Source of the DNA: an uncultured Lachnospiraceae bacterium
GTDB lineage: Bacteria; Bacillota; Clostridia; Lachnospirales; Lachnospiraceae
DNA: 64,000 nucleotides
Direction of reading: 5' to 3'
Assembly: GCA_902780385.1 (NCBI GenBank)
Contig: CACZFF010000036.1
Location: forward strand, 1-64,000
This document shows, piece after piece, positions 62,893 through 64,000 of this stretch. Each line of letters begins with the position of its first letter. The first letter of the stretch is position 1. Below the pieces are notes generated by a model. The model was not told the DNA's origin. It saw nothing but the letters and a program-made list of their open reading frames with translations, and searched no databases. The position numbers and the translations under genes were made by a program.

Positions 62893-62980
62893 TCCGGCAG
62901 GACGGATGATCGCAGGAAAAGGCACAGCCGGATATGGCGGCTGTTCGTTTGGAAGTCGTGAATTGACAGAGGTAAAAGAC

Positions 62981-64000
62981 ATGGCATTATCTACGTATAC
63001 TTATGAGCAGCAGGGGTTAGGAGCAGAGCTCGGACTTCTGACCGATAAGGAAAAAGACGCTTTGGAAAAGTCCTGGGCGGCAGCCTTTGCGTCGGATATT
63101 TTTCCCTATATCGATGAGAAGATTTTCATCCCCCTCTACAGCGAGAGAAAGTCCAGAAGAAATGTTCCGGTCAACGTGCTGGCGGGAGCCCTGCTCCTGC
63201 AGAAGATCCGCGGAATGACGGATGAAGATCTGGTGGAGGCGGCCATGTTTGACCTCCGCCTGCGGACCGCCCTTCATATCACCAATGCGGTCGGACAGCC
63301 CCTGAGCCTGCGCACCATACAGAGGTTCCGGACCCGCCTCAAGAGGCACAAAGAGACTTCCGGCGATGATCTTCTGAAGATCTGCTATGACGGAATTTCA
63401 GACAGACTGACTCCTTTTCTGGAAAAATACGCCAAATATATGGCCAATCCTGCCCAGCCTGATCCGGAGAACAGGGAGCGGCGCAGGGATCCCGGAACCC
63501 GGGCGGCAGGGAAAAAAGACGCATCGTCTGTTTCCGCTTCCGGCACAGTATCATCCGCAAAAGCAGACGGGACAGCTCTTGATGCCGGGCCGGAGCCGGG
63601 ACGGGAAAAAGCGTCCGGGTTTGATCTCTCCATTCTGGCGGATCCGGCCGTTTTCAAGGTAAACTGTCTTCCCGCCCACTCGGACCATATGTTTTTTGCG
63701 GATGAAAGGGAACTGGAAAAGGGCGCCGGGGAGCCGGCCGGAACCGCAGGTTCATCGGTATTGCGCTATTCCCTGAACGGCCTCTGGAAGTTTTCCTATT
63801 CGGAAAAGCCGGCGGACGCGCCCGCAGGCTTTGAAGCCCTCTCTTATGACTGCCGCACATGGGCGGACATCCGTGTCCCTGCCCATATTCAGATGGAAGG
63901 GTATGATGTTCCCGCCTATATCAATTATCAATATCCCTGGGACGGCAGGGAGGATATCATTCCCGGCGAGATTCCGGAGCACTATAATCCCACGGCGTCC
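62981..64000 (+). CDS. Transposase N-terminal domain (DUF772) fused to LacZ-type beta-galactosidase, runs off the window
   Basis: An uninterrupted frame of 340 codons from ATG 62981 (AGAGGTAAAAGAC upstream) to the window edge. Residues about 8-145 match the DUF772/InsH N-terminal domain of IS5/IS1182-type transposases: RKSRRNVPVNVLAGALLLQK, MTDEDLVEAAMFDLRLRTAL, and PLSLRTIQRFRTRL. A charged linker follows (about 155-213). From about 216 the sequence is the N-terminus of a GH2 beta-galactosidase: ADPAVFKVNCLPAHSDHMFF, SLNGLWKFSY (264 on), and IRVPAHIQMEGYDVPAYIN. No DDE transposase domain is present. No good internal start precedes the LacZ part (nearest in-frame ATG at residue 154, no ribosome site), so one protein is expected. 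The catalytic domain of LacZ is beyond the window. Confidence 0.85.
   Translation, partial: MALSTYTYEQQGLGAELGLLTDKEKDALEKSWAAAFASDIFPYIDEKIFIPLYSERKSRRNVPVNVLAGALLLQKIRGMTDEDLVEAAMFDLRLRTALHITNAVGQPLSLRTIQRFRTRLKRHKETSGDDLLKICYDGISDRLTPFLEKYAKYMANPAQPDPENRERRRDPGTRAAGKKDASSVSASGTVSSAKADGTALDAGPEPGREKASGFDLSILADPAVFKVNCLPAHSDHMFFADERELEKGAGEPAGTAGSSVLRYSLNGLWKFSYSEKPADAPAGFEALSYDCRTWADIRVPAHIQMEGYDVPAYINYQYPWDGREDIIPGEIPEHYNPTAS

Follow-up and report, generated by a model that had tools for sequence, protein, structure and literature searches.

Fusion of a transposase N-terminal module to LacZ-type beta-galactosidase, conserved and under selection in a genus of Lachnospiraceae

A gene starting near the right end of a 64,000-nucleotide stretch of DNA from an uncultured Lachnospiraceae bacterium (GenBank assembly GCA_902780385.1, contig CACZFF010000036.1, positions 1 to 64,000, hereafter the window) joins, in a single reading frame, the N-terminal part of a transposase to a LacZ-type beta-galactosidase. 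The fusion is real, and sequence comparison shows that it is conserved and under selection. The frame opens with an ATG at 62981 on the plus strand and is free of stops up to the window's last base, 64000, which still lies within the gene. Along the whole contig (G000:C36, 71,632 bases) it continues to a stop at 67145-67147, which makes 1,388 codons. A preliminary description of the window had proposed such a frame, running from a DUF772 domain through a linker into a LacZ-type glycoside hydrolase family 2 (GH2) start, and had expected extension past 64000 to reveal a full GH2 protein; both were confirmed, and the frame is intact, with no stop or frameshift, in the window's assembly and in relatives. 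From the N-terminus, the protein consists of the transposase part (first ~147 residues), a fast-evolving linker and a complete LacZ. The features are listed below, dN/dS being the ratio of non-synonymous to synonymous substitution rates.

62968..62972, plus strand: Shine-Dalgarno-like AGAGG, 8 nt before the ATG, read from the sequence.
62981..63430, plus strand: transposase-derived N-terminal module, residues 1-150, opening with the start codon of the transposase itself (aligned with 13 transposase sequences; profile match over residues 1-147; one branch with the other fusions).
63155..63352, plus strand: DUF772 match (PF05598), residues 59-124, E 3.1e-8 in the full protein.
63308..63361, plus strand: basic helix, residues 110-127, candidate DNA-contacting helix (structure model and conservation).
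63431..63634, plus strand: fast-evolving low-complexity linker, residues ~151-218 (dN/dS 0.40-0.46 in four pairs of its own clade with unsaturated dS).
63635..64000, continuing to 67147 outside the window, plus strand: start of the LacZ-type beta-galactosidase (NF052611 from residue 219; Pfam GH2 domains to residue 1384).

In the full protein, five LacZ domains exceeded the curated Pfam scores: Glyco_hydro_2_N (264-440), Glyco_hydro_2 (442-551), the TIM barrel (575-868), LacZ_4 (876-971) and Bgal_small_N (1043-1384). The NCBIfam model beta_gal_Bga2A (NF052611) matched residues 219-1385 over model positions 2-1004 of 1007, with 1226.8 bits against a cut-off of 999. Cut at the window's end, the protein gave DUF772 at residues 59-128 (E 7.5e-9) and, at 264-331, the start of Glyco_hydro_2_N, which the truncation kept under the curated score. 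Glu 709 and Glu 776, which we take from the E. coli enzyme to be the catalytic acid/base and the nucleophile, are both present. Judged by its domains and catalytic residues the beta-galactosidase is complete, and it is predicted to hydrolyse beta-galactosides. The fused protein is probably cytoplasmic, as the module stands first in the chain and secretion domains were not detected. Compared with Bga2A enzymes, it shares the domain set, a score above the curated cut-off and both glutamates, but carries ~218 extra residues in front (module and linker), and one of its relatives is a pseudoenzyme. The same genome encodes one further LacZ relative (E <= 1e-50), which is unfused and 37% identical.

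With the first 160 residues as query, matches were obtained in 22 of 61 genomes, comprising 18 fusions (the window's included), one module standing alone (G013) and three other pieces. A profile search of 62 genomes of the genus detected the domain in 32, among them 18 of the 26 genomes with at least 90% completeness and at most 5% contamination. Reading of the frames revealed a one-frame LacZ fusion in 28 of the 62, so that the lack of fused homologues, named beforehand as a ground for refutation, is not what a search for the DUF772 and GH2 architecture finds. Twenty-five of the 28 reach a stop inside their contig and three run off its end. In the other four domain genomes, LacZ is lost or reduced (G013 and G466), the domain belongs to a frame-shifted transposase (G470), or the match is weak, in a frame of 231 codons (G036). 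Outside the genus, where nine candidates at most were scored per genome in samples of 397 genomes from the family and 392 from the order, every frame with a module match had 576 codons or fewer, which leaves no room for a LacZ fusion (the two samples overlap and both include the window's genome; the family sample includes one further member of the genus). A scan of genome contigs gave 23 loci, mostly titled Lachnospiraceae or wider groups and some of them from sheep, goat or deer gut; two (L096 and L101) are transposase-like. One of the 23, in a record titled Sarcina sp. DSM 11001, which NCBI places in Clostridiaceae, carries the fusion.

Domain content is uniform: Glyco_hydro_2_N, Glyco_hydro_2, the TIM barrel and LacZ_4 were detected in all 18 fusions scanned with Pfam, Bgal_small_N in 17 (the remaining one is cut by its contig), DUF772 at E <= 0.001 in 17, and NF052611 in all 18 (E <= 1e-5). 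Both catalytic glutamates are found in 24 of the 25 complete fusions, L177 reading DNES, and the exception (L034) has neither. Many of the genomes are metagenome assemblies, as an assembly artefact would have it. However, both an artefact and a recent insertion are refuted by fusions of this type in 28 genomes (the Sarcina sp. DSM 11001 record among them), by module identities to the window's module as low as 38%, and by the single branch that the modules form (below); we regard the possibility as negligible.

An alignment with 13 transposase sequences (three of which, L158, L192 and L193, are truncated or frame-shifted) places the start of all 28 fusions at the methionine with which the transposases begin. 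A profile of 11 transposases matched every fusion from residue 1 to 139-167, with E 1.3e-36 or better, and 27 positions are conserved in both groups (L181 and L182 were excluded from the profile and from the site comparison). The domain had first been placed at residues ~8-145, which is close for its end, but the match in fact begins at residue 1. The nearest known relatives are IS1182-like transposases (best NCBIfam match NF033551; PF05598 DUF772 and PF13751 DDE_Tnp_1_6), a term that denotes likeness and not a formal assignment, as the four relatives scanned scored 89-131 bits against the NF033551 cut-off of 270. The fusions differ from them in having LacZ in place of the DDE catalytic region and in forming their own branch of the tree. 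No DDE_Tnp match was found by Pfam in the 1,388-residue protein (E <= 0.1), which agrees with the earlier statement that this part is missing; such a match was found in both long relatives scanned (L178 and L183). Many fusions with shorter linkers contain a stretch such as RLDADEIASRI, aligned to RMDSMMIESNI of the transposases, a region that we assume to contain their first catalytic aspartate, and a fusion break just after it is suggested. A linker of ~10 to 100 residues follows, and then a LacZ start resembling that of unfused relatives. Taken from these alignments, the first ~150 codons of an IS1182-like transposase gene appear to have become the 5' part of a beta-galactosidase gene in the ancestor of the genus.

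The invariant start would fit a module that is tolerated as ballast, providing a start codon and a ribosome binding site, with its constraint reflecting the avoidance of misfolding. A proper ribosome binding site had been noted in the preliminary description; the AGAGG before the ATG is Shine-Dalgarno-like, and many of 18 relatives have purine-rich G stretches within the 20 bases that precede this start codon. In 16 of 26 fusions (L167 and L169 were left out) no in-frame start within the linker has a Shine-Dalgarno-like match of at least 4 bases. Ballast, however, is expected to shrink or drift, and substitution rates argue against this. They were estimated by simple Nei-Gojobori counting in 13 pairs of close relatives chosen by hand; dS was near or above 1 in many of them, so the ratios are rough. 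The dN/dS of the module (0.015-0.156) was below that of the LacZ part (0.074-0.232) in 13 pairs out of 13, the narrowest difference being 0.156 versus 0.158. For the linker, the nine computable pairs gave 0.40-0.62 in five cases and 0.00-0.17 in four; dS was saturated in the remaining four pairs. In all the chosen pairs purifying selection acts more strongly on the module than on LacZ and, as far as substitution counts can tell, this constraint shows that the module does something as a protein. We consider the ballast hypothesis improbable.

In a tree of the module, the 28 fusions group on one branch (support 97/95), to the exclusion of the 13 transposase sequences. The module tree (supports 100/99, 89/69 and 80/52) and the LacZ tree (100/100, 86/100 and 94/82) share three subclades of identical membership, which fits shared descent of both parts. 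The LacZ tree omitted L169 for its short length and L035 and L156 for having little or no LacZ; neither L168, whose LacZ is broken, nor fragments in G020 and G459 were used. The LacZ tree weighs against the simplest history, of one fusion inherited unchanged: nine unfused close LacZ relatives (L157, L159-L166) do not fall cleanly outside the fused LacZ parts, and a single clade of the 27 fused LacZ parts was rejected (20.4 log units worse, p value of the approximately unbiased test 0.012). Given that the module forms one branch while a single clade of fused LacZ parts is rejected, this sequence evidence makes it likely that some lineages later lost or exchanged the module, independent fusion on two occasions being less likely. 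The window's clade (L002, L032, L033, L037, L038 and L171) has long, fast-changing insertions within the LacZ domains; complete fusions measure 1,388-1,542 amino acids there versus 1,209-1,332 in the other clades.

The strongest sign that the module functions independently of LacZ comes from three related species in which LacZ is degraded. In G009 both catalytic glutamates are lost, and in G466 and G013 most or all of the LacZ sequence is. The G009 protein (L034; G009:C3:86000-102000, minus strand) is a pseudoenzyme, lacking the centre of the barrel with both glutamates and with its other active-site motifs eroded. Its frame is still open over 1,359 codons, with zero stops versus at least 17 in every neutral simulation by substitution only. 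G466 retains the module with a LacZ remnant (L156, minus strand, 330 codons), and G013 the module alone (L035, 6539-7081, 181 amino acids). Synteny with the window locus, on the upstream side for G013 and on the downstream side for G009 and G466, indicates that all three represent the same locus. On terminal branches estimated from triplets, dN/dS of the G009 LacZ part was 0.26 versus 0.11-0.14 in three relatives, and the accumulated change indicates that this decay is not very recent; at the level of single domains, one short domain gave meaningless ratios. For the module, the terminal values in G009, G013 and G466 (0.065, 0.068 and 0.060) were in the range of three species with intact fusions (0.064-0.088), with one assembly per degraded species, simple counting and high dS. 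Constraint on the module persists after LacZ has died or disappeared, which makes an independent role probable, and ballast again fares badly, with a module dN/dS still at 0.06 in these species.

Transposases and GH2 LacZ enzymes both act as oligomers. The module might therefore be an assembly or stability part, whose multimerisation surface, inherited from the transposase, helps LacZ to oligomerise or fold without any contact with DNA. A compact helical domain under strong constraint would be expected in that case. On the other hand, the module is constrained although LacZ is missing or a remnant (G013 and G466), the nine unfused close LacZ relatives manage without it, and its basic helix is not only retained but more basic than in transposases. 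We hold this possibility to be unlikely, though it is to be reckoned with.

Structure prediction, suggested in the preliminary description, yielded a model of the window's module with a mean predicted local distance difference test score (pLDDT) of 81.7 and a predicted template modelling score (pTM) of 0.78. The model for the module of a 44%-identical relative reached 89.2 and 0.83. Both predict a well-folded, all-helical domain with a long basic helix at residues 110-127. Within it, R115, F116 and R117 are each present at 90% or more in the 28 fusions and in the 11 transposases, and the net charge of the helix is +2 to +7 in fusions versus 0 to +3 in transposases. Among DDE transposases, those of the Tc1/mariner type attach to transposon ends through their N-terminal domains (PMC2170065), for DUF772 a precedent by analogy only. 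From this precedent, the transposase ancestry and the retained basic helix, we infer that the module binds DNA. Fold searches with the module models returned no firm DNA-binding match. Of the captured DNA-binding or multimerising module proposed at the outset, capture and constraint are borne out; DNA binding and multimerisation are candidate roles.

The best explanation overall, which we hold tentatively and as somewhat short of probable, is that the captured module makes the beta-galactosidase a DNA-binding regulator of the trigger-enzyme type, similar to PutA. The module, by the substitution counts and models above, has retained its fold and basic helix and is selected as a protein even without a working beta-galactosidase. 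As a LacZ oligomer, the fusion would sit at one or a few chromosomal sites through the module, and binding or turnover of a galactoside by the LacZ part would alter DNA binding. In species where both catalytic residues are lost, the protein would be a regulator only. The scheme in its specific form, a sugar-sensing DNA-binding LacZ regulator with a sub-lineage in which the sensor is dead or the domain regulates as a free-standing protein, is more doubtful.

Alternatively, the module could be a domesticated inhibitor of IS1182-like transposition that binds transposon ends or mixes with the transposase, LacZ being a mere carrier. Retention of the module after loss of LacZ would agree with this, as would the IS1182-like frames of 545-574 amino acids found in the genus (G026, G028, G464 and G019). 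The Pfam scan of the window's genome, however, detected DUF772 nowhere else, which is expected if the inhibitor works or if there is nothing to inhibit. Moreover, ACCTTGAAAA-type sites are few in that genome and close to the control with the backward pattern (5 versus 3), and why LacZ should be the carrier is left unexplained. We judge this very improbable. An element in the window's genome (L217; G000:C11:27500-30800, ~895-2415) has inverted ends that share a ACCTTGAAAAC core with IS1182-like elements; its transposase has DDE_5 and DDE_Tnp_1 domains and no DUF772.

If the sugar-sensing scheme is true, LacZ, so familiar as a reporter, would double as a transcription factor, and if the module binds DNA, the fusion would illustrate a route from enzyme to regulator. 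The species with a dead or lost LacZ and a constrained module are a natural experiment that separates two functions, and the presence of the fusion in a named strain opens it to testing. To our knowledge, most known cases of host genes that captured transposase domains are eukaryotic; the present one is old, conserved at the level of a genus, bacterial, and has a metabolic enzyme as its partner.

Fusions of host genes with transposases and trigger enzymes are each known already, and the open-licence literature searched gave no example of the present combination. PutA is a trigger enzyme (PMC5052742): it has a metabolic activity and, depending on its substrate, also binds DNA. The working principle proposed here is the same; in contrast to PutA, the enzyme is another one, and the candidate DNA-binding part, whose binding is predicted, is different and derived from a transposase. 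In vertebrate host-transposase fusions (PMC8700633) a captured transposase part is likewise kept by purifying selection, whereas the present case is bacterial and involves a metabolic enzyme. TldR proteins, nuclease-dead TnpB repressors, are bacterial transposon proteins turned regulators after loss of catalysis (PMC13418256), but they are RNA-guided and unrelated to the module, and no enzyme fusion is mentioned in the available portion.

The 400 bases upstream of 30 loci were searched for sites resembling transposon ends. The best score was 9.0, versus 22-28 for real ends, so that binding of the fusion to its own promoter, considered in the preliminary description, is not borne out. Five of the 30 regions (L002, L033, L040, L171 and L177) had p<0.05 relative to single-base shuffles, where ~1.5 would be expected, and the window's best site falls within the NUDIX coding sequence. 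In three sister species (L039, L040 and L174) a conserved palindromic AATGGCGTGCCAAAG lies ~60 nt upstream of the fusion start, beside a TATACT box. Within each of the three assemblies the exact element occurs once, and one genome has a copy with one mismatch; a consensus scan of the region detected no sigma-70-type promoter. As a candidate dedicated operator, it is a lead, no more.

Neighbouring genes vary between clades (19 loci, up to three frames per side, most without a Pfam scan). A gene of the phosphotransferase system EIIC_2 type is found within three frames of six fusions, on the opposite strand in five (the L043 copy was scanned). Downstream of one fusion (L176 1235-6599, G475:C9) are a gene of glycoside hydrolase family 94, a LacI-type regulator, which could control the fusion there, and one frame without a Pfam match. 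Although such sugar genes and this one LacI-type regulator occur nearby, there is no steady lac operon around the 19 fusions listed, and the earlier suggestion that the fusion regulates lactose genes found no firm backing there.

At the window locus itself, no sugar gene was found among the few neighbours scanned. Genes for NUDIX and acylphosphatase proteins lie upstream. Immediately after the fusion, on the minus strand, comes the gene for an enzyme-like NrtR-type regulator (NUDIX and NrtR winged helix; L002 5291-6082, contig 67291-68082), and further on, also on the minus strand, is a gene for a divergent adenylosuccinate-synthetase-like protein (L002 6447-7790, 447 amino acids, 67.7 bits in Pfam). 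Relatives of the latter gene adjoin the fusion locus in G026 and G009.
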